Shown here one piece after another: positions 33,491 through 58,723 of a DNA stretch of 64,000 nucleotides (positions within the stretch are counted from its first letter, which is position 1; every line of letters starts with the position of its first letter). The DNA is from Pseudogemmobacter hezensis (GTDB lineage: Bacteria; Pseudomonadota; Alphaproteobacteria; Rhodobacterales; Rhodobacteraceae). Location: assembly GCF_013155295.1 (NCBI RefSeq), contig NZ_JABJXT010000003.1, forward strand, positions 1-64,000, written 5' to 3'. The translations under genes and the position numbers were made by a program. The notes under the pieces were generated by a model, which saw nothing but the letters and a program-made list of their open reading frames with translations, had not been told where the DNA came from and did not search any database.

Positions 33491-34335
33491 TTGTGCCCAG
33501 GGCATGGCTGTGGTGCGGGCCCGTCTTTCGGGCACCTGCCGGGGCAGGACAGGACAGGACAGGTCAGGGCAGGGCGGAGCAGAGCGGGGAATCACCGCCG
33601 ATCAGCGCCGAGGCTGTTTCCGAATTTCGCACAGTGCGGGTTGAGTGAATTCCACCCCTGCAACCCCTAGTATATTTTCCCGTCAATCATGGCATATGGA
33701 AGGCAGAGAGGTGCTGCCCTGATGGCCGTGCTTCTTTTCCTAACGCATTATATTTTCTGGAAAATCCCCGCATTCTTCCCGGTTTTGAAAAGCGGGCAGG
33801 TCCCAAAACGACCGCGAACCTGCCCGATTTGAGACAAAAACAATAGACATCCTTGTCTGGTGTAGAGTGATGAGTAGGGCATTTGGGTGTCAGGCCGTTT
33901 TCCATATTTCGGAGATGATGCAGGCCGTGATTTCGGCGTTGATGCGCAGTCAGAGGCAGCGGGGATTGCCCTCGCTGTGCCATTTCGTTCGCGCCGGGTT
34001 GCTGCAATCAGCCAGGATTTGGCCAGTCAGGATTTGGCCAGTCAGGATTTGGCCAGTCAGGATTTCGCGGGGCGGGATTTGGCTGGGCAGGATTTGGTCG
34101 GGCGGGATTTGGTCGGGCGGGATTTGGCTGGGCAGGCATCAGGTAACCGGGCGGGGCGCGACACCATTGCCAGAGTGCCCGGCTGCCAGAATGGCAGCAT
34201 GACAAAACCCTTGCCGGACCCGGAATAGACGCCGGATCCGGAAATTTGCATGGGTCGGCTTTGGTCGGCCCGGCGACAGAATGTGACGAATGACGCAGGC
34301 AGTCTTTAATGCCGCACAAAGTTGAGAGGGCCCTC
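33491..34335. other. Low-complexity left flank of the accessory block
   Basis: About 850 bases without a gene I can support. It contains a 5-bp simple repeat (CAGGA-type, 33545-33575), an AT-richer stretch at about 33640-33860, and the 15-bp tandem array at 34013-34136. The promoter of the GTPase operon should lie in its right part, but no clear -35/-10 pair was found. Confidence 0.5.
34013..34136. repeat. 15-bp tandem repeat array upstream of the GTPase operon
   Basis: About eight copies of a 15-bp unit based on CAGGATTTGGCCAGT. The first three are identical; later copies vary to GGGCGGGATTTGGTC and similar. Because the unit is a multiple of three, plus-strand reading gives SQDLA/GRDLA pentapeptides resembling pentapeptide-repeat proteins, and minus-strand reading gives DWPNP/ARPNP. 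Neither frame has a ribosome site or a domain around it, so I treat it as a DNA minisatellite. Confidence 0.75.
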
Positions 34336-36360
34336 ATGTCCAGGGGAAACATCAGGCTGAAGCACCGGGCGGGGTTTGAAGAACTGAACCGCTATTGGAC
34401 GCGCCTGGCGGATCTGGAGAATGCTGTCGAGAACTTCCGCGAGTCCTCGCTGGCCTTCCTGGAAGAGCCGATCGAGCGCGTGCTTGACGCGATCCGTTCG
34501 TTTGAACCCTCGATCAGCGTGATCGGGCAGATCAAGGCCGGGAAAAGCACCCTGGTCAACGCGCTGATCGGTGAGACCGATCTGCTGCCCTCGGATGTGA
34601 ACCCCTGGACCTCGGTGATTACCGCGCTGCATCTGAACAGCCGTCACCGCCCCTATAAGACGCGGGCGCTTTTCCGCTTTTTCGACCAGCATGAATGGGA
34701 CCGTCTGGTCGCCACCGGCGGCCGTCTTGGCGAGATGGCCACCCGCGCCGGCTTTGAGGCCGAGGCCGATGAGGTGCGCAATCAGGTCGTGGCGATGCGC
34801 CGCACCACCGAGGCGCGGCTTGGCAAGGAATTCTCTGAGATCATCGGGGCGAACCACACCTATGCCGAGATCGATAAGAGCATCATCAACCGCTATATCT
34901 GCTATGGCGACCCGTCCGAGCTGACCGATGGGTCCGGCGACGGCGTCTATGCCGATATCACCAAGACCGCCGATCTTTACATCGATGCCGAGGGTCTGCC
35001 CTCGGGGCTGTGCATCCGCGACACGCCCGGCGTCAATGACACTTTCATGATGCGCGAGCAGATCACCCTGAACGCGATCCAGGACAGCCGGGTCTGCGTG
35101 GTGGTTCTGTCGGCGCATCAGGCGCTGTCGACGATGGATGTGGCGATCCTGCGCATCATCTGTGCCGTCGAGGCGCGTGAGGTGGTGATCTTCGTCAACC
35201 GCATCGACGAGCTGGTCAACCCAGAGGCAGAGAAGGAAAAGATCCGCCTCTCGATCCGCAACACCCTGGCGCGGCTGGGGCTGGACCAGGATATCTCGAT
35301 TCTGTTCGGCTCTGGCTATTGGGCGAATTTCGCCCTGTCAGAGACGGGAACGCTGGGCGGGCGCAGCCTGGAATCGCTGTGCAATATGGTGCCGGGCCTG
35401 AATACCGCCGACCCCGTGGCGCTGCGCGATGCCGCGTTTGAGGCCTCTGGCGTGCCTGCGCTGCACCGCCTGCTGGTGCAGCGCGTGGTTGAGGGGCCGG
35501 GCGCCGCCTTCCTGAAAGACATCGAATCCGAGATCCGGCTGATCGTCGAGATGAGCGAGGCGGTGGATTCCGCTGCCCGTCTGCGCGACGCGGGCATGGC
35601 TGTGCTGACCGTCAGCAATGAAGAGCTGCTGATGAAGGTGGCGGATTCGCTGGAAAGGGTGATGGCCGCCTTTGACACCGCCGCGGCCGAGCTGCGCGGC
35701 CATCTGGGCGAGCGGCTGACCCGCGCCCAGGAGACCTTTGTCGGCTCTGCCGTCGAGGCGCTGCAATCGCATGTCGCCGCCTTTGGCGAGACCGGATCCT
35801 GGGAACACGACCCGACCGGGCTGCGGATGATGATGCGCACCGCCTATCTTTCGGCCTGTTCCAAACTGCGCCGCGAGGGCGAAGTGGCCTTTGAGGGGGT
35901 GCTGGACGGCGTCCAGGACGTCTTGCAAAACGAGCTGGGGGTGTTCCGGAACGCCGCCAGCATCGACTTCCCCGAGCAAAAGCAGCACGCGGCCCCGACC
36001 ATTCTGGCCCGCACCCTGTCGCTGGATCTGAACGGCATCTGGTGGCAGCGCATCTGGGATACCGGGCTGACCGGGCGTTTCCTGCGCTTTGGCAATGCCA
36101 AAAAGATCGAAAAGAAATACCGGGCGCTGATCATTGATGAGACTCAGCCGCTGATCGACCATCTGCTGGCGGATTTCTTCGATCCGGCCATCGCCGCAAC
36201 GCGTGACATCGTCACCGCCTTTACCCTGGATCAGACCCGCTTTTGCGAGGCGCTTCTGGAACGCCTGCGCGAGCAGGGCCCCGATCCGGCGATGGAAGAG
36301 GATGACGATGATCGCCTGGCCCGCCTGACCGGTACCACCGTCCGGAGAATGTCGGCATGA
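34336..36360 (+). CDS. Dynamin-like GTPase, large member of pair 1
   Basis: About 674 residues from ATG 34336 (MSRGNIRLKHR), with GAGAGGG upstream; ATG 34309 is an alternative. GTPase motifs: G1 GQIKAGKST (64-72), switch I SDVNPWTSV, G3 DTPGVND (about 229), G4 NRIDEL (about 288). The C-terminal half is helical, as in bacterial dynamin-like proteins. Near the end an aromatic-rich motif (TLSLDLNGIWWQRIW) recurs in the other two large members and is a candidate membrane-contact site. No transmembrane helix. The stop overlaps the next start (ATGA). Members of this family form membrane-bound oligomers that fuse, tether or protect membranes; this one's job is unknown. Confidence 0.88.
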   Translation: MSRGNIRLKHRAGFEELNRYWTRLADLENAVENFRESSLAFLEEPIERVLDAIRSFEPSISVIGQIKAGKSTLVNALIGETDLLPSDVNPWTSVITALHLNSRHRPYKTRALFRFFDQHEWDRLVATGGRLGEMATRAGFEAEADEVRNQVVAMRRTTEARLGKEFSEIIGANHTYAEIDKSIINRYICYGDPSELTDGSGDGVYADITKTADLYIDAEGLPSGLCIRDTPGVNDTFMMREQITLNAIQDSRVCVVVLSAHQALSTMDVAILRIICAVEAREVVIFVNRIDELVNPEAEKEKIRLSIRNTLARLGLDQDISILFGSGYWANFALSETGTLGGRSLESLCNMVPGLNTADPVALRDAAFEASGVPALHRLLVQRVVEGPGAAFLKDIESEIRLIVEMSEAVDSAARLRDAGMAVLTVSNEELLMKVADSLERVMAAFDTAAAELRGHLGERLTRAQETFVGSAVEALQSHVAAFGETGSWEHDPTGLRMMMRTAYLSACSKLRREGEVAFEGVLDGVQDVLQNELGVFRNAASIDFPEQKQHAAPTILARTLSLDLNGIWWQRIWDTGLTGRFLRFGNAKKIEKKYRALIIDETQPLIDHLLADFFDPAIAATRDIVTAFTLDQTRFCEALLERLREQGPDPAMEEDDDDRLARLTGTTVRRMSA

Positions 36361-37721
36361 GACTGCCCTGGAGCCGCTCTTCCTCATCCACCCCGTCATC
36401 TGCCCCGGGCGCCGCGCCTGATCGCAGCCCCAATCCGGTGCAGCGCAAACCGCGCATCCTGATCGCGGGCGAGTTCAGCGCCGGTAAAACCCAGCTGATC
36501 ACCGGGCTGATCGGTGCAAAGGTGCTGCCGTCCAATGTCACCGCCACGGCCCTGCCGCCGGTCTGGCTGGTGCAGGGCGAGCCCGCGCTGATCCGCGTCG
36601 GCTTTTCGGGCCGGGCAGAGCCGATTGCCGATCTCATCTCGGTCGATCTGGAAAAGACGCAATATTGCGTGCTGGCGAACCCGGCGGCCTCGCTGCTGGG
36701 GATGGATATCATCGACACGCCCGGGAATTCCGACCCGAATATGTCCGCCGAGGCCTGGCAGCGCATGCTGACCTATGCCGATGCGGTGGTCTGGTGCACC
36801 AATGCAACCCAGGCCTGGCGGCAAAGCGAAAAGGCCGTCTGGCAGGCGATGCCCGCAAGGCTGCGTCAGAATGCGACGATCGTTGTCACCCATGCCGATC
36901 TGCTGAATGGTGCGGGCACGGCGGATCGCGTTATGCAGCGGGTTCAGCGTGAGGCAGGGGCGTTTTTCGACAGCTTCATCATGGCGTCCCTGCTGGATCG
37001 CACCGATATTGACCGCATCAGCGCGCATCTGCGCAATCTGTGCGGCAGCCTGCGGTTGGAAGGGGCGGCCAATCCGCTGACCGGCCAGTTCGCCGCGGCG
37101 AATCCGGTTCGCATGCGGGCCCCTGCACAAACGCCCGCCCAAATGCCCGCGCAGCCCCCCACCCGGATGCCGGCCCAAAATTCGACCCAGACACTGGCCC
37201 AGAATCCGGCCCCGACACCCGTTCAGACACCCGTTCAGACCCGCGCCGAGGTTGCCCTTCGGGCGGCCGTTCAGCCTGCGGCTTCGCATGCAGCTGTCTG
37301 GCCCGAAGAGAGCGCCGACACGCCCTCTTCGCGGATCCGCGACGCAGAGGATGAGCCGCAGGCGACGGGCGCGAAGGTGCTTCACATCATCCGGCCCCAT
37401 CGTCAGGCGACGCCGACCGCAACCGGGATCGCCGCAGGCAGCCGCATCGAAGCGCAACCTGCGGCAGCTGGCGCGGCTGCAGCGGGTCAGGGAGCGGCGG
37501 GTCAGGGAACGGCAGACCAGGGTGTGGCCCGTCAGCTTTGGAATGAGTTGAGTAAAACAGTGGATCGGTCTGATCCGGTCGCGCTTTTGTCGGCGGTTGA
37601 CCGGCTGATCGCCCGGTTGGATGCCCATCCGGATACACGGCCCGGCAATGCCGGTGGTATTGGTAATACGTTTGCCAGAGGTGCCGCCCCCAACGGCCTC
37701 TCAGCTGAGATTTACGAGTAA
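36357..37721 (+). CDS. Small dynamin-family GTPase, partner of pair 1
   Basis: 454 residues. G1 GEFSAGKT (38-45), switch I region PSNVTATALPPVWL, G3 DTPGNSDPN (about 120), and THAD (about 178) at the G4 position. The domain ends near residue 240. A long Pro/Gln/Thr/Ala-rich linker with slippage-type repeats follows (QTPVQT, GQGAAGQGTADQG), then a short predicted helix RQLWNELSKTVD near the end. The same tail helix is seen in the small GTPase of pair 3. It starts within the stop of the large partner, suggesting 1:1 coupled synthesis. Paired dynamin-like GTPases often form hetero-oligomers. Confidence 0.83.
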   Translation: MRLPWSRSSSSTPSSAPGAAPDRSPNPVQRKPRILIAGEFSAGKTQLITGLIGAKVLPSNVTATALPPVWLVQGEPALIRVGFSGRAEPIADLISVDLEKTQYCVLANPAASLLGMDIIDTPGNSDPNMSAEAWQRMLTYADAVVWCTNATQAWRQSEKAVWQAMPARLRQNATIVVTHADLLNGAGTADRVMQRVQREAGAFFDSFIMASLLDRTDIDRISAHLRNLCGSLRLEGAANPLTGQFAAANPVRMRAPAQTPAQMPAQPPTRMPAQNSTQTLAQNPAPTPVQTPVQTRAEVALRAAVQPAASHAAVWPEESADTPSSRIRDAEDEPQATGAKVLHIIRPHRQATPTATGIAAGSRIEAQPAAAGAAAAGQGAAGQGTADQGVARQLWNELSKTVDRSDPVALLSAVDRLIARLDAHPDTRPGNAGGIGNTFARGAAPNGLSAEIYE

Positions 37722-37730
37722 GGACCTGTT

Positions 37731-39851
37731 ATGCAAATTGCACCGAACCAGCGCCAGGAACTGAATTTCCTTCGTGACTCGCTCGACGGCATCGACAAGG
37801 TCGTTGGGCGTGAGATGCGCCAGCCCTTTCGTGATCTGCGCAACCGTCTGGATGCATGGGCGGCGAAGGTTGCGGTCATCGGCCAGGTAAAGGCCGGGAA
37901 ATCGACATTTCTGAACGCCTTCCTTTACAGCCATGACTTTCTGCCCTCGGATGTGAACCCCTGGACCTCGGTGGTGACCAATATCCGGGTCAATATGCCC
38001 GGCGACCCGATCATGGGCGCGAAGTTTGAGTTTTTCGGCCAGAAAGACTGGGATGAGGTTATCAATGGCGACAGCCGTATCCGCAAACTGACCGAACAGC
38101 TGCTGCCGGGCTTTGACACCCAGCTTTTGCGCAAGCAAAGCGATGAGATGCGCCAGCGGGCTGAAAACCGTCTGGGCAAGCGCTATGCCGATCTCCTGGG
38201 CACGGTGCATGACTATGATTATGTCTCGTCGGATCTCTTGAAAAGCTATGTCTGCGCCGGGCCCGATGATGAGGCCGATACCGATGCGGCCGGGCGTTAC
38301 GCGATGCTGACCCGGGTGGCCAATGTCTATATGCGCCTGCCCGAATTCCAAGTGCCGACCATCATCACTGACACGCCCGGGGTCAATGATCCCTTCCTGG
38401 TGCGCGACGAATTCACCTGCCGCAGCCTTGATAAATCGGATGTATTCGTGATCGTTCTCTCGGCGCATCAACCGCTGACCGAGGTCGATATCGCGCTGAT
38501 CCGCATCCTGGCGAAACAGGACAACAAGGACGTTCTGGTCTTTGTGAACCGCATCGACGAGCTGGATGACTACGACAGTGATGTGCCCCGGGTGATCGAC
38601 GATGTCACCCGCCGTCTGTGCGGCGCGATCCCGGACATTGATTTCACCATCGTCGCGGGATCGGCCTGGATGGCGGATCTGACGCTGCAGGACGGGCCCG
38701 AGGCCGAGGCAGATCGGGCCGCGCTGGATGACACCCGTCTCGCCCGTTATATCCACTCGCGCTATGGCTATCTGCCCGATGACCGCTGCGAGCGGCTGAT
38801 GCTGGCCTCTGGCATGCGCGATGTGAAAATGGCGCTGTCGCAGGTGATCGACCAGGGGGTGGGTCGCCACCAGATGGCTCAGATCAAGGCCGATATCCGG
38901 GCCGAGCTGAATGGCGCCCTGTTCGTGGCACGCCGCGAGCGGGCCTCGCTGCAGACCCAGGCCGGTTCGGTGAACAGCGATGTCGCTAATATGGCGATCG
39001 AGGATCTGCAGGCCGAAATCGACGCCATCCGCAAAGTGCAGACCGAGCTGGAGGGCCATGTCGAGAACGCCGAGGCGCAGATCGAGAAAGTGCTGACCAA
39101 ATCCTGGTCGCGGCTGGAAACCCGGATGATCGGCGCGATTGAAAGCTTTATCGAGGATCAAAAGCCCGAATTCGAGGCCCGGATCATGTCCGGAAAGCTG
39201 CGGGGCGAGCCTGCGAAAGCGGTGGATATCGAGCTGTCGCCGCTGCAGCGTATCATGGAAAAAGAGCTGTCGGCTGCCTGGAAAAACTCGCGGGCGGGGA
39301 CTGATGTGGTGCTGTCCAATGGGCTGTCTTCTTGCCAGCAGACCATCAAAGACCGCTTTCAGGACCGGACAGAGGGCATCAGCCTTTCCGATCTGCCCTA
39401 TGATGAGTTCGCCTCGACGCTGACGCTGGCCAAGCGCTCTATGCGGGTCAATCTGATCGCCAATCGCAACTGGGCCTTCTGGCGCAAATCCTCGATCAAC
39501 CTCGAGAAAAGCCTGGCCGCGCTGCGGCTGATCGCTGCCGAAGAGCTGCGCCCGCCGATGGAGAAGATCCTCGCGGCCTTCAACGAGGCCCAGGTCGAAC
39601 GCGCCAGCGCCGGGATCGACCGGATCCGCGTGATGCTGCGCATGTTCGAGGTCTCGCTGAACGAGCGGGTTCATCGCCTGAAGAAAGACATGGTCGAATT
39701 CGAGATGGTGGTGAATGACGCCGACTTCCGTCGCCGGATCGTGCATCGCCTGCAAAGCCAGATGGAGGTGCTGGAGCGCCGCCTGATCAATCTGTCGGCG
39801 GTCGAAAGTGCCCTGGCGCAATCCGAAGTTGCCAGTGCCGTTGCAGCCTGA
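37731..39851 (+). CDS. Dynamin-like GTPase, large member of pair 2
   Basis: 706 residues. G1 GQVKAGKST (51-59), switch I SDVNPWTSV, G3 DTPGVND (about 214), G4 NRIDEL (about 273). The middle part has a long helix with coiled-coil character (about residues 415-460, rich in Glu/Gln/Ala). The counterpart of the aromatic motif is SMRVNLIANRNWAFWRKSS (about 566-584). It is 10 bases after the pair 1 small gene. The three large members share the same plan but differ widely outside the G domain, so they look like old paralogues rather than recent copies. Confidence 0.88.
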   Translation: MQIAPNQRQELNFLRDSLDGIDKVVGREMRQPFRDLRNRLDAWAAKVAVIGQVKAGKSTFLNAFLYSHDFLPSDVNPWTSVVTNIRVNMPGDPIMGAKFEFFGQKDWDEVINGDSRIRKLTEQLLPGFDTQLLRKQSDEMRQRAENRLGKRYADLLGTVHDYDYVSSDLLKSYVCAGPDDEADTDAAGRYAMLTRVANVYMRLPEFQVPTIITDTPGVNDPFLVRDEFTCRSLDKSDVFVIVLSAHQPLTEVDIALIRILAKQDNKDVLVFVNRIDELDDYDSDVPRVIDDVTRRLCGAIPDIDFTIVAGSAWMADLTLQDGPEAEADRAALDDTRLARYIHSRYGYLPDDRCERLMLASGMRDVKMALSQVIDQGVGRHQMAQIKADIRAELNGALFVARRERASLQTQAGSVNSDVANMAIEDLQAEIDAIRKVQTELEGHVENAEAQIEKVLTKSWSRLETRMIGAIESFIEDQKPEFEARIMSGKLRGEPAKAVDIELSPLQRIMEKELSAAWKNSRAGTDVVLSNGLSSCQQTIKDRFQDRTEGISLSDLPYDEFASTLTLAKRSMRVNLIANRNWAFWRKSSINLEKSLAALRLIAAEELRPPMEKILAAFNEAQVERASAGIDRIRVMLRMFEVSLNERVHRLKKDMVEFEMVVNDADFRRRIVHRLQSQMEVLERRLINLSAVESALAQSEVASAVAA

Positions 39852-39864
39852 GGCAGGGGGACCC

Positions 39865-41049
39865 ATGGAGTGTGATCCTCCCCTGTTCAAACAGATGGCC
39901 GATGCTGATTTTGATGCGGATCATCCCGCAGACGCCGATCCCGTCCCGGCGGCGCCGCCGGGCCTTGGGCAGCCTTTGGCGGAACGCGCCCCGCGCAAGC
40001 CGGGCATTGATCTGCAGGTCGTCGTCTGCGGCGAGGTCAGCTCTGGCAAGTCGACGTTGCTGAACACGCTTTTGCTTGGTCGGATGCTGCCCGACAATCT
40101 GGGCGCGGCAACCCGCCCCGGCGTGGTGGTGACGGGCGGCGGCGGTGAGATCGGCTGCTGGCGTCAGGATGAAGAGACCCTGACCCCGATCACCGATCCT
40201 GAGGCATTGCGTGATGCCGCCCTGATCCATGTTGCAACCGATCTGCCGCATCTCGACGGGATCGAGCTGATCGAGATGCCGCTGACCACCGCCGAGGCAA
40301 TAACCGCGCAGGATCTTGAAACGGTTCGCAACGCTGACGCGCTGATCTGGGTCACCATCGGCTCGCAGGCCTGGCGGCTGACCGAGCGCAGGATCCTGGA
40401 CGAGCTGCATGCAGTCCGCCCGGCCCGTGGCCTGATTGTGATTTCCCGCGCCGACAAGCTGCGCAATGAGGTCGATCGCGACAAGATCATCGAGCGGGTT
40501 CGCTGTGAAGCCGCCAGCTATTATCCCGACGTGATGTTTCTGGGCGCGTCGCGGCAGGCGCTGGAGGCGGCCGCCAGTTCGGATTTGGCATGGGCGGGCA
40601 TTGGCGGGTCGGATCTGGCTTTGCGCCTGATGGCCTGGCGCGAAGAGGTTTCGCCAATGGATGTCGTGCCGGATGTCGTTTCGAACCCGGCCTCTGGGCT
40701 GACGCAGCCGGCAGAGCGGGCCTCTGGCCTGGGGCCGCCGCAGGAAGCGGGGCTTCCGGCCTCATCCCTGGCCGCGCCGTCCCGGGTGGCGGTGGCAAAG
40801 GGCGCTTTGTCGGGGGTTGGCGTGACGGGGGTTGGCGTGACGGGGGCGCTGACAGAGGTTTTGGCCGAGGTTTCGGCGGGTGGCGGCGGGGCAACCGGCC
40901 CGGTTGAGTTCACTTTGCCTGCGGGCCTGTCGCGGCTGCCCACCCGGCAGGCTGCAAATGGCACAAATGCCGAAAGCGGAAAATCTGAGGCCGGTCACCG
41001 AAAATCCACCTTCGATCCACAAATTTTCCACAAACTGAGAACAATTTGA
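39865..41049 (+). CDS. Small GTPase-like protein of pair 2 with degenerate G3 motif
   Basis: 394 residues from ATG 39865, preceded by AGGGGGA. G1 is intact (GEVSSGKS, 56-63) and the G4 position reads SRADKL (about 195), but the G3 motif DTPG, expected after LIE at about 136, is replaced by EMPL. Hydrolysis or switching may therefore be altered. Switch I also departs from the other small members (NLGAATRPGVVV). The C-terminal half is low-complexity, with GVGVTG duplicated by an exact 15-bp DNA repeat. It lacks the LWNEL-type tail helix of pairs 1 and 3. It may be a regulatory or structural subunit of its large partner. Confidence 0.75.
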   Translation: MECDPPLFKQMADADFDADHPADADPVPAAPPGLGQPLAERAPRKPGIDLQVVVCGEVSSGKSTLLNTLLLGRMLPDNLGAATRPGVVVTGGGGEIGCWRQDEETLTPITDPEALRDAALIHVATDLPHLDGIELIEMPLTTAEAITAQDLETVRNADALIWVTIGSQAWRLTERRILDELHAVRPARGLIVISRADKLRNEVDRDKIIERVRCEAASYYPDVMFLGASRQALEAAASSDLAWAGIGGSDLALRLMAWREEVSPMDVVPDVVSNPASGLTQPAERASGLGPPQEAGLPASSLAAPSRVAVAKGALSGVGVTGVGVTGALTEVLAEVSAGGGGATGPVEFTLPAGLSRLPTRQAANGTNAESGKSEAGHRKSTFDPQIFHKLRTI

Positions 41050-41267
41050 GTCGCATCGGAAGGAATGATTCCGTGACGACCCTGTCGGGTCTCGTGTCAG
41101 TTACGATTTTTCGGCGCAGTTAAGCGCCAGACAATTCGGCAACCGCGAGTATCGCACAGCCCTGTCACCAATCCTCTTTTCGTGACGAACCGGCGGACGC
41201 GCCCGACGAGGGCGTGCTCGCATGTGAGCCGCGTTTTGTGTGCTCCTGCAAAAGGGAGAAATGGTTT

Positions 41268-43451
41268 ATGACGGGTGGGATGACGAGCAGGGGCGGCGCG
41301 ACCGAAGGGGCTGTTGAAGAGGCACCGGAAACGGATCGGGCGCAGAACCGCTATTTGCTGCGCCACGGGTCAGAGCTGATCGGGCCGTTTTTCCACACGC
41401 TGGACACTTTGCGCGACACGGTTGCGGAACAGGCCGAAACGGCCGATCCGGCAATGGGCAAGAAGCTGTCGGCGCTGGCAAAGAAGATCGACAACTTCGA
41501 GGCCTCGGTCACGCTGGTGGGCCAGGTGAAGGCGGGTAAGACCTCGCTGGTCAATGTGCTGTCGGGCAATGTCGGCCTGCTGCCATCGGATGTGAACCCC
41601 TGGACCTCGGTGGTCACCTCGCTGCATATCAATTCGCGCAGCAATACCGTTAAAACCCGCGCGCAGTTTCGGTTTTTCGACGACGGTGAATGGAATAAAA
41701 TCGTGCGCGGCGGTGGCCGTATCGGCGAGCTGGCCGGGCGGGCCGGGGCCGATGAGGACCTCGACAAGCTGCGCGCCCAGATCGAGACGATGCGCGACAC
41801 CGCGCGTCGCCGCCTGTCCTCGAGCTTTGAGGCGCTTTTAGGCAAGACCCATAAATACGGCTATGTCGACCGTGAACTGATCGAGCGCTATGTCTGCCTT
41901 GGTGACCCCGACGAGCTGGAGCTGAACCCCAAAAGCCAGCAGGGCCGCTTCTCCGATATCACCAAATCGGCCGATATCTGGCTGGATCGCCCTGAGCTTC
42001 CCGGCACCTATCTGTTCCGCGACACGCCCGGGGTGAACGACACTTTCCTTGTGCGCGAACAGATCACCATTCAGGCGCTGCGCGGATCCAAGGTCTGCGT
42101 GGTGGTGCTTTCGGCTCATGAGGCGCTGAACACCACCGATCTGGCGCTTGTGCGGCTGATCTCGAATTATGAATCGCGCCAGGTGATCCTGTTTGTGAAC
42201 CGCATCGACGAGCTGGCCCAGCCATCGGCGCAGGTGGCAGAGATCCGTGACAGCATTACCCAGACCCTGAAATCCTACAGCCGCCTGAAGGGGGCCAGCG
42301 TGGTTTTCGGCTCGGCGCGTTGGGCGGAAATGGCGCTATCGGGGGACCTGGAGGGCCTGGATGAGGATGCCCGCGCCGCGCTGGATGACTGGACGGCCAA
42401 TAGCGGTATCGCCGCCGATGCCGATCAGATGGCCCATCTGTGGCACCTGTCGGGCGTGCCCGCGCTGATGCATACGATCAATGAGCGGATCATCGAACGC
42501 TCTGGTGCCCGCCACCTTGAGGCGGTGCGCGCTGCGCTGTCGAATATCACCAGCGCCATGGCGGCGCGTCAGGCGCTGGCGGCGGGGCGTGATACGGCCG
42601 GGCGGCTGGCAAAGCTGGATCCGGCGGTGCTGCGCCAGGAGCTGGCGGATCTTGGCACCCGCGCAAAGCAAAAGCTGGATGAGACGCTGGCACGGCTTGA
42701 GAATGAGCTGGCCCCGGCGCTGGCCCAGGTGCAGGATGACTATGTGAACCGCGCCACAGAGGCTCTGGGCGAGCATCTGCGTCAGGGCAATGGCGGCGAC
42801 AGCTGGACCTTCAATTCCTCGGGTCTGCGCCTGGTGTTGCGCACCACCTATGACCGCTTTTCGGCCCGCGCCCGCGCACAGGTGGAATCGGTCTTCTTTG
42901 GCGCATCCTCGGATCTGGGCGGGGTCTATATCGGCACGCTTGGCCTGGAGATCGACGGTTTCCATATCGAGCCGCCGCAGGTGCCAAAGGCCCCGCCGCC
43001 AATCGTGCTGGGCAAGACCATCGCTGTCGATCTGGGGGGCAACTGGTGGAAACGCTGGTGGCAGCGCCGCAAGGATCCGGCCAATCTGGCGGGCGAATAT
43101 CGTGACCTGATCGACGCCGAAATCGGCTCGGTCATCCAGGATCTGAAAGAAAACCAGCTTTCCGAAGTGTTCGGCGAGATGCGGCGCGTGTTCGACGAAT
43201 TCCTCGCCGAGCAAAGCGAGACGGTGCTGGATCTGCTGCGCCAGGCGGTCGAGCATGATGCGGCCGCTGGCGCGGGGGATGACGCCGATCAGGCCGCAGG
43301 CGCAGGCGATCCGACCGATACGCGCGATTTTACAACGATTATCAACGGGGTGCTGGGCAATTTCCGCCTGACCGAAGCCCCGGAAGAGCCGCAGTCCGAA
43401 GACGAGGGCAGCGACACATTTGAACTGCGTAAAGTGGTGGGAGGGTATTGA
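41268..43451 (+). CDS. Dynamin-like GTPase, large member of pair 3
   Basis: 727 residues from ATG 41268, with GGGAG at 41254-41258. G1 GQVKAGKTS (85-93), switch I SDVNPWTSV, G3 DTPGVND (about 252), G4 NRIDEL (about 311). The helical region includes two stretches with coiled-coil tendency (about 450-510). The aromatic motif TIAVDLGGNWWKRWW is the strongest of the three. The tail is acidic. A 218-base gap separates it from pair 2 and may hold a second promoter. It is the closest relative of the pair 1 large protein by motif spacing. Confidence 0.88.
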   Translation: MTGGMTSRGGATEGAVEEAPETDRAQNRYLLRHGSELIGPFFHTLDTLRDTVAEQAETADPAMGKKLSALAKKIDNFEASVTLVGQVKAGKTSLVNVLSGNVGLLPSDVNPWTSVVTSLHINSRSNTVKTRAQFRFFDDGEWNKIVRGGGRIGELAGRAGADEDLDKLRAQIETMRDTARRRLSSSFEALLGKTHKYGYVDRELIERYVCLGDPDELELNPKSQQGRFSDITKSADIWLDRPELPGTYLFRDTPGVNDTFLVREQITIQALRGSKVCVVVLSAHEALNTTDLALVRLISNYESRQVILFVNRIDELAQPSAQVAEIRDSITQTLKSYSRLKGASVVFGSARWAEMALSGDLEGLDEDARAALDDWTANSGIAADADQMAHLWHLSGVPALMHTINERIIERSGARHLEAVRAALSNITSAMAARQALAAGRDTAGRLAKLDPAVLRQELADLGTRAKQKLDETLARLENELAPALAQVQDDYVNRATEALGEHLRQGNGGDSWTFNSSGLRLVLRTTYDRFSARARAQVESVFFGASSDLGGVYIGTLGLEIDGFHIEPPQVPKAPPPIVLGKTIAVDLGGNWWKRWWQRRKDPANLAGEYRDLIDAEIGSVIQDLKENQLSEVFGEMRRVFDEFLAEQSETVLDLLRQAVEHDAAAGAGDDADQAAGAGDPTDTRDFTTIINGVLGNFRLTEAPEEPQSEDEGSDTFELRKVVGGY

Positions 43452-44911
43452 TGGAAAACGGGCAGGACAGAGAACGTTTCGTCTCGGCCGCACAGCTGAA
43501 CCGACTGGCCGACTGGAGCATGCGCAAGCCGGTTATCGCGCTGATGGGCGAATTCAGTGCCGGTAAATCGACGCTGATGAATCTGCTGATCGGCCAGAAT
43601 ATTCTGCCGACCCAGGTCACCGCCACCCGCATGCCGCCGGTCTGGCTGCGCTATGGCGAGGGCGAGCCCTATCTGGTTGACCATGCGGGCAATCACCATC
43701 CGGTGGACCTGAGCGATCAGGCCTCGATCCCGTTGGCGAACACCAGCTATATCCGGCTGTTTTGCAAGGCCGAGATCCTGCAGCATTGCGATCTGATCGA
43801 CACGCCCGGCATCTCAGACCCGAATATCAAGGTCGAAAACTGGATCCGCACCATCCGCTATGCGAATGCGGTGATGTGGTGCACCCATGCGGGCCAGGCC
43901 TGGCGCGAAAGCGAGCGCGGCGCCTGGGAGGCGCTGCCAAAACGGCTGCGCCAGACCTCTATTCTGCTGGTAACGCGCAAAGATAAGATCACCTCGGAAC
44001 TGGATCGCCGCAAGATCGAGCGGCGGCTTGAGCGCGAGACCCAAAGCCTGTTCAACGCCCGGATGTTCATCTCGCTGACCAATGCCATCAAGGCCCGCCA
44101 GTCGGGTGACACGGGGGGCTGGGCCGACAGCGGCGCGCAGGATTTCTCGGAAATGCTGTCGAAGATTGTCGAGGGCGTTTCGGTGCAGCGCAGCTTCCTG
44201 ATGGCACGCTATACGCTGGGTACTGCTCTGGCCGATGCGGCAGCACCTGTCGCGGATAGGGCGCCGATCATTGCTGAAGCCGTGCCTGCCGCCGCAAGCG
44301 GGACCATTCATGAGATCCGCCCGACGGTGGTTGAACTGCCGGTCGGCCTGATCCCGACGGTTCCGTCTGAAAGCGATCTTTCGGGGGCCGATCTGGCCGG
44401 GGTTCTCAGCCAGAAAGAGGCCGCGCCACAGCCGGATGAGGCAGCCGTGGCAAGGCCTGCGCCGGAAACCACTGGCGATGATCTGTCGCTTGGATGGGCG
44501 CCAAAGCCGAAGGTTGATCTGAACAGCTATCGTCTCAAAACGCCGGTGACTGAAAAGCCTGATTCAGAAGCAATGCGCCGCGTTGATCTGAATAGCTATC
44601 GCCTGATTGATCCGGCGCTGCGCCCTTCATTAGCGGCTGATAATGCAGTCATTGCAATCAATGGTGATATTAAGTCGGATTCAGATCAACCAAAAGTTGT
44701 TGATGATGCGGGTGATATTGGTGTCACTGTGGGTATTTCCCAAAATAATCGCCAAAACGAAGTAGACAGAATACGAGAAATCTGGGAACAACTGAAACAG
44801 CAGTACGATATCTGGCAAACGCCCAGCCTTGTTGCCGCCTTCGGGCAGCTTCTTGGTGAGAATGGTCTGAATGACCGCAAAGAGGCGCAAAGACGGGTAT
44901 CAATCAGATAA
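43451..44911 (+). CDS. Small dynamin-family GTPase, partner of pair 3
   Basis: 486 residues; the ATG overlaps the stop of the large gene (TGATG). G1 GEFSAGKS (33-40), switch I PTQVTATRMPPVWL, G3 DTPGISDPN (about 117), and a TRKDKI motif in the G4 position (about 175). After the G domain comes a linker in which the octapeptide VDLNSYRL occurs twice about 26 residues apart, then a tail helix REIWEQLKQQYD similar to that of the pair 1 small GTPase. The last 300 bases are visibly more AT-rich than the rest. The repeated octapeptide looks like a docking motif (inference). Confidence 0.83.
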   Translation: MENGQDRERFVSAAQLNRLADWSMRKPVIALMGEFSAGKSTLMNLLIGQNILPTQVTATRMPPVWLRYGEGEPYLVDHAGNHHPVDLSDQASIPLANTSYIRLFCKAEILQHCDLIDTPGISDPNIKVENWIRTIRYANAVMWCTHAGQAWRESERGAWEALPKRLRQTSILLVTRKDKITSELDRRKIERRLERETQSLFNARMFISLTNAIKARQSGDTGGWADSGAQDFSEMLSKIVEGVSVQRSFLMARYTLGTALADAAAPVADRAPIIAEAVPAAASGTIHEIRPTVVELPVGLIPTVPSESDLSGADLAGVLSQKEAAPQPDEAAVARPAPETTGDDLSLGWAPKPKVDLNSYRLKTPVTEKPDSEAMRRVDLNSYRLIDPALRPSLAADNAVIAINGDIKSDSDQPKVVDDAGDIGVTVGISQNNRQNEVDRIREIWEQLKQQYDIWQTPSLVAAFGQLLGENGLNDRKEAQRRVSIR

Positions 44912-45078: not shown

Positions 45079-45654
45079 GTGATTGATTTGTTCGGTATAG
45101 GACGGGTGCCGCAGCTGCCCCAGGAAAGGCCAGAGGCGCCTTCGGACTATTTCGGGCCGGCCAATTTCACCTGGCTGTTGCGTGGCTTGCTGGGCGGAAT
45201 GCCACAGCCAGGCTATTTGCGCGCATTTGATGATGATGCAGACGCGATCTCCCGGATGGGGGTGACGACAGTTGTCACCCTGACCGATGAGTGGCGCATG
45301 CCCGAAGAGCATTTTCTCTGCCACGGCCTGCGAAATGTCTATGTTCCAATTCCCGATATGGCGCCGCCTGAAATGGATCAGGCTGTTGCAGTTTGCGACG
45401 AGGTCGCCGGGATTATTGAAAATGGGGGCAGTGTTGCGTTCCATTGTCGTGCCGGACGGGGACGTACCGGCACAATGCTTGCCGCAATGCTGATTTGGTA
45501 TCGCCTGGAATTTGACACAGCGATCCGATTGATAAAGGCAGCAAACAAAAACTGGATCGAGTCTGACGCTCAGATGTCATTTCTCGAGCAGTTCTCACAG
45601 ATGCTTCTGAATGGTTCAGTTGTATCGAAATCCGAAGGCGGCTCCTGGGCATGA
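45079..45654 (+). CDS. Dual-specificity/tyrosine phosphatase-like protein
   Basis: 191 residues from a GTG at 45079. The cysteine-phosphatase active site HCRAGRGRTGT (CX5R plus the following Thr) is intact at about residues 121-131. The general acid is probably an Asp in the loop VTLTDEWRMPE or PIPDMAPPE. The N-terminal WLLRGLLGGMPQPGYL is typical of DSPs that act on phosphotyrosine, phosphoserine or phosphoinositides. It follows the GTPase genes on the same strand. A possible role is reversal of phosphorylation on a GTPase or lipid head group (inference). Confidence 0.85.
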   Translation: MIDLFGIGRVPQLPQERPEAPSDYFGPANFTWLLRGLLGGMPQPGYLRAFDDDADAISRMGVTTVVTLTDEWRMPEEHFLCHGLRNVYVPIPDMAPPEMDQAVAVCDEVAGIIENGGSVAFHCRAGRGRTGTMLAAMLIWYRLEFDTAIRLIKAANKNWIESDAQMSFLEQFSQMLLNGSVVSKSEGGSWA

Positions 45655-45744: not shown

Positions 45745-46146
45745 ATGTCACTCGACAAAGCTCTGCAAAACGCCATGTCAACGATCCCCGAGTGCCTCGC
45801 CTCCGGCTATGTCGATATGGAAACCGGGATGCTTCTGGGCATCTTCACCGTCGACTCCCATCCGCAAGAGGTGCTTGATACCCTCGCCGCTGCGACCGCT
45901 GATCTTTTCCAGGGCTCGTCGGTTGTGCAAATTGAGAATATCTTCAAAAAAGCACGCGGCACCAAATCGGATAACCATTACTTCAATGAGTTTCTGATCT
46001 TCTCGGAAAACCTTATCCACGTTTTCATGCGCACCAAGCGCTATCCCGGCCACGTGACCTGCTTCGTCTGCCGCAAAAGCGCAAACCCCGGCATGGTGCT
46101 TACCAAGGCCCGCATGTCGCTGGACGCAGTCACCAGCGCTGTCTGA
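45745..46146 (+). CDS. Roadblock/LC7-like small protein
   Basis: 133 residues with an AAAGGAAG ribosome site. Predicted order is helix, two strands (SGYVDMETGMLLGIFTV), helix (PQEVLDTLAAATADLF), three strands (FLIFSENLIHVFMRT, HVTCFVCRKS, ANPGMVLTKARM) and a last short helix. This is the roadblock/LC7 order, as in MglB. Such proteins dimerise and regulate small GTPases; bacterial MglB is the GAP of MglA. Its place next to six GTPase genes supports a regulator role, but the fold call rests on pattern reading only. Confidence 0.6.
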   Translation: MSLDKALQNAMSTIPECLASGYVDMETGMLLGIFTVDSHPQEVLDTLAAATADLFQGSSVVQIENIFKKARGTKSDNHYFNEFLIFSENLIHVFMRTKRYPGHVTCFVCRKSANPGMVLTKARMSLDAVTSAV

Positions 46147-46344: not shown

Positions 46345-47646
46345 ATGGCGGATCCGATCCTTGTGGTCGAGGGCCTCTGTGTCCGCGCAAAGGGCCGGAT
46401 CATCTTTGACGGGCTGGATTTTGCCTTGCCTGCAACCGGGATGACCGCCCTGATGGGGCCGGTTGGAACCGGAAAATCCTCTTTAATAAAATGGCTTTGT
46501 GCGCGGGCAGAGCCTGCAATCTATAAGATCGAATATCGCCGGGCGGATTACTTTTTTGCCCCACTGACGCGGCGCAACCGCCCGCTTCTTTATGCGCAGC
46601 GCCAGGCAAAGACCGTTGAACAGATGTTCACTTTGCTAAGCCTGCATCTGAAATCGAACCCCGCGCTGATCTGCATTGACGAAATCACCGCCGACCTTGC
46701 CCCCGCCGACAGCGAAAGGGTGATGGAGCGGCTTTCGATCATGGCCCGCTCGCGGGCCTTGCTGGTGGTCAGCCATAATCAGCAGGAGGTGCGTGATTAT
46801 GCCGATCACGTCATGCTGGTTGCCGGGGGGCGGATGCAGGAATTCACGCCTGCCCGCCAGTTTTTTGAGACGCCGCAGACCGATGCCGGGCGGCAATTTG
46901 TCGGCTCGGGCTGGGTGGTCACCCGCGAGCCCGGCACGCCAGACCACCATCTCAGCGCGGAAATGCGCGAGCTGCCCTTTGATCTGACGATCGAGCCTGT
47001 CGGCGGCAATGACCGGCTGCTCTCGCTTTGCGGCGGCAAGCTGTTCTTGCTGGATCTGGAGGCTGACGGCGCGCTGCCCCCGGGCGTTGTCCCCGGGGCG
47101 GCAGAGATCAGCGCGTTGATCTGCCTGCCAGGAGTGCCTGCCACAGGAGTGCCTGCCACAGGGGCGCTGACCTCGACCGGCCTGACCTCGACCAGCCTGC
47201 CCGCGGTGCGGTTGCCTGATGCGGGCCCGACAGGTGATTTCGCGGCTGACAGGGCCCGGATCGCTTTGCTGCGGGCGCGGATGGCGGCGGGCGGCAGCCC
47301 GGCGATCCTGCGCTGCGGCAACCATCATGAGGTCGCGCGCCTGGTCGCGCTTTTGCTGATTTCAATGCAGGTTTCGGCCGATAAGGCCTCTGACATGGCG
47401 GCACGGCTTTTGGGGCTGCCTGCGCTGGATGTCGAAACCGAGCAAGAGCTTTGGGATTTCGAACTGGCGCAGGATCTGGCGCAGGATCAGATGCCCGCGC
47501 CGCCGGATCCGCCTGCATCGCATGGCGCGCTGGCCGCTGCCCGCCAAAGCGCGGCAAAGTCCTCTGCCATTCCGGCGCTGCCCCCGGGCGCCGTCACACC
47601 CGTCGTGCCCATCCCCCGGCGGAATTTGTTCATTCGCAAGGTCTGA
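46345..47646 (+). CDS. ABC-type ATPase fused to a degenerate phosphatase-like domain
   Basis: 433 residues. The N-terminal 210 residues are an ABC ATPase: Walker A GPVGTGKSS (about 36-44), Walker B ALICIDEIT, H-loop VVSHNQQEV, and a PstB-like end. The LSGGQ signature is missing: the stretch before Walker B reads AKTVEQMFTLLSLHLKSNPA. There is no membrane segment and no permease nearby. The C-terminal part (about 225-400) aligns in order with the DSP phosphatase two genes upstream, ending in a segment ILRCGNHHEVARLVALLLIS in which CX5R is broken. I read it as an ATPase fused to a pseudophosphatase. The linker has short duplications (GVPATGVPATG). Confidence 0.68.
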   Translation: MADPILVVEGLCVRAKGRIIFDGLDFALPATGMTALMGPVGTGKSSLIKWLCARAEPAIYKIEYRRADYFFAPLTRRNRPLLYAQRQAKTVEQMFTLLSLHLKSNPALICIDEITADLAPADSERVMERLSIMARSRALLVVSHNQQEVRDYADHVMLVAGGRMQEFTPARQFFETPQTDAGRQFVGSGWVVTREPGTPDHHLSAEMRELPFDLTIEPVGGNDRLLSLCGGKLFLLDLEADGALPPGVVPGAAEISALICLPGVPATGVPATGALTSTGLTSTSLPAVRLPDAGPTGDFAADRARIALLRARMAAGGSPAILRCGNHHEVARLVALLLISMQVSADKASDMAARLLGLPALDVETEQELWDFELAQDLAQDQMPAPPDPPASHGALAAARQSAAKSSAIPALPPGAVTPVVPIPRRNLFIRKV

Positions 47647-47696: not shown

Positions 47697-48311
47697 ATGA
47701 AAGACCAGGTTGAAAGCAAATGTCCGTTCGGTTTCGGTGGCGGTTCCGCTGCGACAGAGACCTCTGGCCAGCCCGCTGCAGCACCCGGTGAGGCCTATCG
47801 CCATATGGGAATGACCCCTGGCATGAACCGCGACAAACTGCCGGAACTGCTGCGCGAACCGATTGAGGAAGGGGCCGAGGGCCTGGCCACCGGGCGCTGC
47901 CTCTGCGGCAAGGTGACGTTTAAGATCAAACAGCCCGTCTCGATGGTCTTCGCCAATCATGACGCCACCTCGCGCCGCCGCTCTGGCGGGGTTTCGCTGA
48001 CCATCATGCTGCGCGCGACCAGCACCGCCTTTTCAGGCTGGGGCAGCCTGGTGAATTACCAGGTCTCTGACCGCGAGGTCTCGTGCTTTTGCCGGATCTG
48101 CGGCACCCCGGTGCTGACCCGCTATCTGGCCCCCGAGGCGATGACGGGGATGATTTCGCTGCAGGTCGGCGTGTTGGACAGCACCGAGGGGCTGCGCCTT
48201 GCCGCCGATATCAGCCATGATGAAAAGCCGGATTTCTACGCCTTTGCCGGCGAGCGCCGCGTGATCAACTCGACCGAGCTGGAAGGCATGTTCAGCGGGC
48301 CGCGCGGCTGA
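47697..48311 (+). CDS. GFA/CENP-V-family zinc protein
   Basis: 204 residues from ATG 47697 with AGGAGCAGG upstream. The core (about 64-200) has the zinc-binding cysteines of the glutathione-dependent formaldehyde-activating family: CLCGKVTF near the start and CFCRICGTPV about 60 residues later. The N-terminal 60 residues are an extension with a CPFGFGGG start. Members bind zinc and some act on glutathione adducts; the actual reaction is unknown here. The gene lies 50 bases after the ATPase fusion. Confidence 0.8.
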   Translation: MKDQVESKCPFGFGGGSAATETSGQPAAAPGEAYRHMGMTPGMNRDKLPELLREPIEEGAEGLATGRCLCGKVTFKIKQPVSMVFANHDATSRRRSGGVSLTIMLRATSTAFSGWGSLVNYQVSDREVSCFCRICGTPVLTRYLAPEAMTGMISLQVGVLDSTEGLRLAADISHDEKPDFYAFAGERRVINSTELEGMFSGPRG

Positions 48312-57721: not shown

Positions 57722-58723
57722 ATGCGAGCATCACGGATTGAACTGGCCCTGGAAGAGGGCCTTTTTGCGCTTCCCGAGACGGGGCAGATCGCGGTTTTCC
57801 GCCCGCATCAGGGCGATGATCTCTCGGCCCTGCCGAAAGATCGGGTCGTGGTGCTGACAGGGTTCCGTCCCGACAGCGATTATTTCAAAGCCCGGGGCTA
57901 TCAGGTCGAAAGCGCTGCGCCAGCGGGGGCGGCCCCCTATGCGGCGGCGCTGGTTTGCCTGCCGCGCGCACGCGATCATGCGAAAGCGATGCTGGCCGAA
58001 GCTGCGGTCCGGGTTGCGCCTGGCGCCACTGTGCTGGTTGACGGGCAAAAGACCGACGGAATTGAATCAATTCTGAAAGATCTGAAGCCCCGCGTCGCCC
58101 TGTCTGGCGCGATCTCAAAGGCGCATGGCCGTATCGCGGCTTTTGCGGCGGGGCCAGAGCTTGCCGATTGGGCCGATCAGCCGCGCCAGGTTGAGGGCGG
58201 CTTCATCACCCGCGCCGGGGTGTTCTCAGCGGATGGGCCGGATCCGGCCTCGGTTCTGCTGGCCGAACATCTGCCCGAAAAGCTGGGGCCGAAGGTGGTC
58301 GATCTGGGGGCGGGCTGGGGCTATCTTTCGCGGGCGATCCTGGCGCGTGCCAGCGTCAAACGGCTGGATCTGGTCGAGGCAGAGGCGCTTTCGCTGGAAT
58401 GTGCCCGCCAGAACATCGACGATCCCCGCGCGAATTTCCATTGGGAGGATGCGACCGCCTTCCGCCCCGCCAATCTGGCCGAGACGGTGGTGATGAACCC
58501 GCCCTTCCATATCGGGCGCAGCTCTGATCCGACGCTGGGCATTGCCTTCATCACGGCGGCGCGGCGGATGCTGGCCCCGGATGGGGCGCTCTGGATGGTG
58601 GCCAACCGCCATCTGCCCTATGATGAGGCGCTGACGACCCATTTCCTTGAGGTCGAGACCGTCGTGCAGACCAATTCCTTCCGCGTGATCCGCGCCATCA
58701 AGCCGCGCCGCCAGGCCCGTTAA
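57722..58723 (+). CDS. rsmC: Class I rRNA methyltransferase, RsmC type
   Basis: 333 residues with a two-domain plan: a decayed N-terminal methyltransferase-like domain and a C-terminal catalytic domain with the SAM motif VVDLGAGWGYLSRAIL and the amino-methyltransferase motif NPPFHIG. RsmC methylates G1207 of 16S rRNA (m2G). It starts 30 bases after clpS, probably the same transcript. Confidence 0.88.
   Translation: MRASRIELALEEGLFALPETGQIAVFRPHQGDDLSALPKDRVVVLTGFRPDSDYFKARGYQVESAAPAGAAPYAAALVCLPRARDHAKAMLAEAAVRVAPGATVLVDGQKTDGIESILKDLKPRVALSGAISKAHGRIAAFAAGPELADWADQPRQVEGGFITRAGVFSADGPDPASVLLAEHLPEKLGPKVVDLGAGWGYLSRAILARASVKRLDLVEAEALSLECARQNIDDPRANFHWEDATAFRPANLAETVVMNPPFHIGRSSDPTLGIAFITAARRMLAPDGALWMVANRHLPYDEALTTHFLEVETVVQTNSFRVIRAIKPRRQAR

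Follow-up and report, generated by a model that had tools for sequence, protein, structure and literature searches.

Bacterial dynamin-like proteins (DLPs) are a known family whose members usually occur in pairs. The closest described counterparts of the locus considered here are CjDLP1 and CjDLP2 of Campylobacter jejuni (PDB 5owv, 5oxf), encoded by adjacent genes in an operon that also contains an HcpA-like beta-lactamase; the same source describes Bacillus subtilis DynA as two DLPs fused in one protein (PMC6104087). DynA is a member of the bacterial dynamin family with a reported role in membrane protection (PMC8844932). Other relatives include Nostoc BDLP1 (PDB 2j68, 2j69) and the LeoABC proteins of enterotoxigenic Escherichia coli. 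Here we describe three stacked pairs of large and small dynamin-family genes in Pseudogemmobacter hezensis, in a 64,000-nucleotide stretch of DNA (contig NZ_JABJXT010000003.1, positions 1 to 64,000; hereafter the window), followed by genes for a phosphatase, a Roadblock-fold protein and an ATPase. We slightly favour the reading that this cluster is a regulated bacterial dynamin system, and membrane remodelling is its likely function. What is apparently new is the stacking of three specialised pairs, together with the link from dynamins to phosphorylation and a Roadblock protein: full-text searches of a partial literature collection found no published description of such an array. By term search, dynamin is mentioned zero times in PMC7159879 and PMC11237479 and four times in PMC7016017, there in connection with EHD/sarcalumenin.

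The six genes, designated L (large) and S (small) with a single digit, lie on the forward strand in the order L1-S1-L2-S2-L3-S3 between positions 34309 and 44911, with overlaps or short gaps within pairs. L1 (34309–36360, 683 residues) is followed by S1 (36357–37721, 454 residues, with a low-complexity tail), L2 (37731–39851, 706 residues), S2 (39808–41049, 413 residues), L3 (41214–43451, 745 residues) and S3 (43448–44911, 487 residues). An earlier sequence-only reading had proposed six alternating large and small GTPase genes on one strand from 34336 to 44911. All six open reading frames (ORFs) are present and 34336 is a possible later in-frame start of L1, although the ORF begins at 34309 and the unit extends beyond 44911. 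The overlaps claimed for pairs 1 and 3 are also borne out, with 4 bases (ATGA) shared in pair 1 and, in pair 3, 4 bases from a TTG start or 1 base from the ATG at 43451; pair 2 is spaced by the proposed 13 bases if S2 starts at the ATG at 39865. The motifs named in that reading can be found in the translations, and all six proteins, the L proteins among them, exceeded the Pfam gathering score for Dynamin_N (E 3.1e-15, 1.2e-15 and 7.3e-10 for L1, L2 and L3; 5.4e-8, 1.7e-8 and 2.0e-12 for S1, S2 and S3).

L1, the only L protein that we folded, gave an AlphaFold2 model with a mean pLDDT of 86.2 and a pTM of 0.82 from a 74-sequence alignment. The model consists of neck helices, a G domain and four long stalk helices (residues 382–427, 437–492, 503–543 and 590–654), with a tryptophan-rich loop (578–583) between stalk helices; the aligned W583 is present in 68 of the 74 L sequences. 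Invariant across all 74 are K76, G78 and K79 of the P-loop, the motif D238-TPGVND, and N297, R298 and D300. When the model was compared with PDB structures using Foldseek, DLPs ranked first among 26 matches at E ≤ 0.001, which included BDLP, SynDLP, IniA, CjDLP1/2, LeoA (4aur), mitofusins and MxB; the top match was BDLP 2j69 (E 3.3e-11), at a TM-score of only 0.47. An L profile searched against PDB sequences matched CjDLP1 best (E 1.3e-14), then BDLP (1.8e-12), with CjDLP2 at 4.1e-5. We conclude that L is a BDLP-type bacterial DLP with a G domain, a long helical stalk and a tryptophan-rich loop.

The S profile, by the same search, matched CjDLP2 best (E 1.5e-17, over profile positions 31–220), with CjDLP1 at 1.4e-5. 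Given that L is closest to CjDLP1 and S to CjDLP2, each pair parallels the CjDLP1/CjDLP2 pair. The two systems differ in that S1–S3 comprise 413–487 residues without an evident stalk, compared with 614 in the Campylobacter pair, and in that three pairs are found here together with a Roadblock protein, a phosphatase and an ATPase. After the G domain, S tails are variable, short or of low complexity, and no helical stalk was evident in S1–S3 as judged by sequence only. At this level, S thus amounts to a G domain of the dynamin family followed by a variable tail. The earlier description of the six proteins as GTPases of the dynamin family is borne out, but by sequence the S proteins are not full dynamins. 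The G1 motif is present in all 123 paired S proteins; in S1 it reads GEFSAGKT, with DTPG at G3 and THAD at G4.

The association of L with S extends well beyond the window. An S gene lies directly downstream of 126 of the 140 L genes that encode at least 560 residues. Distances among L proteins correlate with distances among their S partners (r 0.93 for 123 non-duplicate pairs, with a maximum of 0.11 in 2000 permutations), and the correlation persists within the 28 multi-pair loci, whose 60 pairs give r 0.90; when S was swapped within loci 2000 times, r averaged 0.12 and never exceeded 0.52. Complete six-gene sets were found in the window and at three other loci (fetched loci carry three-digit labels, L009–L138): L030 of Mesobacterium pallidum, and L039 and L041 of two Rhodobacterales metagenome-assembled genomes. 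Our architecture table lists L030 out of order because of an extended ORF start. Single and double pairs are common in the order; in a 196-genome sample of it, P. hezensis is the only genome with three L genes side by side. We also built a quick maximum-likelihood tree from 90 L proteins, assessed by SH-aLRT support without bootstrap and with some long branches flagged. In it the first, second and third positions form separate clades; L2 belongs to the clade of L4, a gene on another contig to which it is 54% identical, and L3 to the third-position clade (8 rows, SH-aLRT 100). The array is more than a chance arrangement, because the same gene order recurs in other genera. The possibility that the three pairs are unrelated neighbours, raised in the sequence-only reading, is rejected for the complete array on the strength of the conserved order and the supported position-specific clades; in addition, every L varies in step with the S of its pair.

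A different question is whether the pairs, although related, are old and partly redundant duplicates that each work alone and form no joint machine. Single pairs are indeed widespread, with 47 loci of the order S-L-S-R (R, Roadblock-family), and in congeners S2 and S3 decay while L1–L3 persist. The same genome also has two further L-S pairs that stand alone: L4-S4 on contig C36 (L009:5863–10122, reverse strand) and L5-S5 on contig C2 (L010:11364–15224, forward strand). However, the order L1-S1-L2-S2 is kept over many genera, the position-specific clades are without sign of homogenisation, and one set of Roadblock, phosphatase and ATPase genes is common to each array. On balance, we regard independent action of the pairs as rather unlikely, and we suggest instead that they would be specialised versions, co-assembling or answering different signals, rather than interchangeable copies. 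Each solitary pair is accompanied by a small protein, RB4 on C36 and RB5 on C2, that is probably of the Roadblock family; the two are 70% identical to each other, had no BLAST match to the Roadblock-fold protein of the window (RB1), and belong to a group whose hidden Markov model (HMM) misses RB1. The C36 pair adjoins clpP/clpX-like genes, and a recombinase-like ORF, read by eye, lies near the C2 pair.

The unit continues past S3 on the same strand with three genes that the first reading had missed, between 45079 and 47646. The first encodes PTP, a dual-specificity-type phosphatase (45079–45654, 191 residues; Pfam PF22785, E 2.2e-21) with an intact HCRAGRGRTG signature; all six PTP orthologues contain HC[RHK]AG[RHK]GRTG. 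The second encodes RB1 (45745–46146, 133 residues), whose AlphaFold2 model (pLDDT 88.8) has the Roadblock/LC7 fold: Foldseek returned 114 matches at E ≤ 0.001, with Roadblock, MglB and Ragulator proteins in the top ranks, among them the Roadblock protein 3kye (E 6.6e-8), at TM-scores of 0.70–0.77. An HMM built from 43 roseobacter Roadblock proteins alone also detects RB1 (E 1.6e-13). The third gene encodes an ABC-like ATPase (46345–47646, 433 residues; ABC_tran, E 7.9e-6) that lacks the LSGGQ motif and has a C-terminal domain resembling PTP (hhalign probability 97.7 in a single comparison) without the catalytic signature. Orthologues of the ATPase adjoin phosphatase or Roadblock genes in L033, L041, L136, L137 and L138. 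In L041, PTP and Roadblock form one ORF, followed by the ATPase gene, and in L033 a single ORF of 615 residues joins S, PTP and Roadblock, again followed by the ATPase gene. These are metagenome assemblies in two separate records, for which fusion through assembly error is not fully excluded. PTP was detected at E ≤ 1e-20 in 4 of 390 genomes of the order, namely P. hezensis and those of L136, L137 and L138, and in all four it is found alongside L, S, Roadblock and ATPase. A possible accessory gene follows (47697–48311), encoding a 204-residue GFA-like protein with an N-terminal CPFGFG motif (Pfam GFA, E 5.5e-11 on a longer ORF); homologues with this motif occur in fetched loci of eight other genomes, and in P. 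bohemicus the GFA-like gene is separated from S3 by unrelated ORFs.

Outside the window, dynamin pairs are often accompanied by Roadblock and kinase-FHA-PP2C genes. L was found in 10 of 30 genomes of relatives, P. hezensis included, in 6 of the 12 other genomes of the genus, and in 72 of the 196 genomes of the order sample, again counting P. hezensis. With four candidates scored per genome, L is present in 2 of the 241 genomes sampled from the class and in 5 of the 249 sampled from the phylum (P. hezensis included in each), the others all being of the same family. A scan of named genomes confirmed at least 548 candidates, of which 80 were kept; the matches listed are from Rhodobacterales, including Neomegalonema, whose order was checked. 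No single or double pair outside Rhodobacterales was seen in the samples or among the matches listed. We surveyed 97 loci, L106 and L107 being duplicate fetches, and found a Roadblock-family ORF in 81 of them with an HMM seeded with RB1 itself. In addition to S-L-S-R, the gene orders include R-L-S-L-S (12 loci) and S-L-S-R-L-S (6 loci). Roseobacter loci mostly carry an added kinase-FHA-PP2C module: STK and PP2C families are both present in 48 of the 97 loci (within the series L056–L105, in 47 of 50), and an FHA-like ORF is present in 49 of 97, these three assignments having been checked with Pfam on one locus and against the annotation of two plasmids. One Ruegeria plasmid combines both styles, in the order L-S-Roadblock-F5-L-S-kinase-FHA-PP2C. 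F5 (L094:13347–14147 and homologues) is a family of proteins of about 260 residues, unmatched in Pfam, whose gene comes after that for Roadblock in roseobacter loci; it occurs in 45 of the 97 loci and is absent from the window cluster. A second small P-loop protein is encoded upstream of the roseobacter L (L094:8617–9843); it has only weak P-loop matches in Pfam, but at homologous loci the S profile detects it.

Several findings weigh against a regulated dynamin system. Four congeners (L026/L107, L027/L106, L108 and L109) keep L1–L3 but lack a full match to S2, which is internally deleted so that only the last codons are found, and in three of the four S3 is fragmented; in L109 the match to L2 is split over two frames. 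Loss of S2 and the broken S3 argue against an obligate six-subunit machine, so that of the multi-subunit machine originally envisaged, the dynamin-family GTPases and the bacterial DLP fold of L stand, and an obligate six-part composition does not. The loci fetched from these four congeners yielded no PTP, no Roadblock and no full ATPase, L026 having a 54-residue ATPase-like remnant. The G3 motif DxxG is missing from all 32 S proteins of the L2/L4 type (S2 of the window has EMPL) and is present in all 91 others; S2 therefore may not hydrolyse GTP. Co-variation of L and S partly reflects an old split between two pair types, and the correlation is therefore evidence of lasting partnership between genes and not of contact between proteins. 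TM-scores for L were moderate, as with BDLP. Finally, Pfam gives no match for RB1 at E ≤ 0.01, and a profile of its family searched against PDB sequences found no Roadblock protein (the best match was IC140, E 0.86); because these searches were negative, RB1 is assigned by its fold. We also considered, and set aside, the idea that S ends in a Roadblock domain. Among S proteins of the L2/L4 type, the tails match one of three Roadblock groups, with an hhalign probability of 94.6 as against 27.7 and 0.8 for the others; the tail of S2 in the window shows no such domain, so we keep it as a lead only.

With these points in mind, we read the cluster as a regulated membrane-tethering or membrane-sealing system, inferring the regulation from gene order and fusions only. 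L and S would form hetero-oligomers on the pattern of CjDLP1/CjDLP2, a heterotypic pair characterised by a membrane-tethering 2:2 tetramer. L would touch the inner membrane through its aromatic loop, a candidate for the membrane-binding tip (paddle) of DLPs, and GTP would be used to tether, tubulate or seal membrane. A Roadblock dimer might provide a platform for S or L or regulate their GTPase activity, and the phosphatase might switch assembly by phosphorylation, as the kinase-FHA-PP2C set may do in roseobacters; Roadblock and phosphatase control of the cluster is thus suggested by the arrangement of the genes. A known parallel is that of MglB and MglA of Myxococcus and Thermus, in that RB1 shares the MglB/Roadblock fold and is encoded with GTPases. 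Here the GTPases are dynamins rather than the Ras-like MglA, and a GTPase-activating role for RB1 would be by analogy. We know of no Roadblock protein or phosphatase associated with DynA. More tentatively, the cluster may form a signal-gated membrane coat, in which the three L-S pairs co-assemble into a mixed tether or coat, the Roadblock platform sets the GTPase cycle, and the phosphatase or the kinase-FHA-PP2C module acts as the switch. In eukaryotes, Roadblock proteins and dynamins both act at membranes; in this ecologically important bacterial order, the two are encoded in common operons and, joined to a phosphatase, even occur within one polypeptide. A signal-gated coat of the kind just outlined would be the first dynamin system under Roadblock regulation, with a logic that parallels Roadblock scaffolds on eukaryotic endomembranes. 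The cluster makes two questions approachable: how bacterial dynamins are regulated, and for what purpose one cell keeps several diverged pairs.

The sequence-only reading had also suggested an anti-phage machine, for which we found no supporting context at the window cluster. In an anti-phage or abortive system, the dynamins would keep the membrane of an infected cell together or seal it, so that lysis is delayed, as reported for B. subtilis DynA, whose role in phage resistance is a precedent (PMC8844932). The patchy presence of L in the genus and order is consistent with such a role, as are 18 plasmid records carrying L and a set of PADLOC matches: kinase models match the roseobacter kinase, the LeoA/LeoBC models match L (E 2.5e-10 at best), and the mad3 model matches the ATPase (E 1.1e-12). 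However, the PADLOC matches are partial and of a generic-domain kind, and the gene set differs from LeoABC. The cluster lies between cbb3-oxidase genes and not among recognised defence genes, no systematic test for defence islands having been made. L is absent from 50,697 phage records and was not found in viral contigs by a pattern-limited search, and an origin of L in a phage or provirus is likewise unsupported by these searches. We therefore consider an anti-phage role possible and, as the explanation of the cluster, unlikely. The MADS defence system was rejected as an identification, since the cluster proteins match only mad3 (ATPase), mad8 (L1 and L3) and generic-domain models, and the full mad set is absent.

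The position of the array raises a further alternative to regulated tethering or sealing, namely a system linked to low oxygen or nitric oxide that shapes or repairs the respiratory membrane. The array sits between genes that, by reading alone, we take to be ccoNOQP and ccoGHI, and three congeners have it at the same cco-like location; the GFA-like CPFGFG protein recurs, and a ferredoxin-reductase-like gene, read by eye, directly follows pair 3 in L030 (20028–21773) and L039 (20729–21937, with a Roadblock gene as well). In P. bohemicus and at other loci, the cluster is located elsewhere. FNR-like boxes at ≤1 mismatch number five (shuffle mean 1.3), one of them upstream of the ccoN-like gene, but none lies between the ccoP-like gene and L1, which led us to reject FNR control of the cluster itself. 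We consider a respiratory function very unlikely. Scans for promoters and terminators gave results close to those from shuffled sequence and were set aside. The interval between the ccoP-like gene and L1 contains a 15-base tandem repeat of 8.5 copies (34009–34136), and 10 kb from the cluster, positions 57722–58723 have a partial match to the PADLOC mad2 model (E 1.1e-18).

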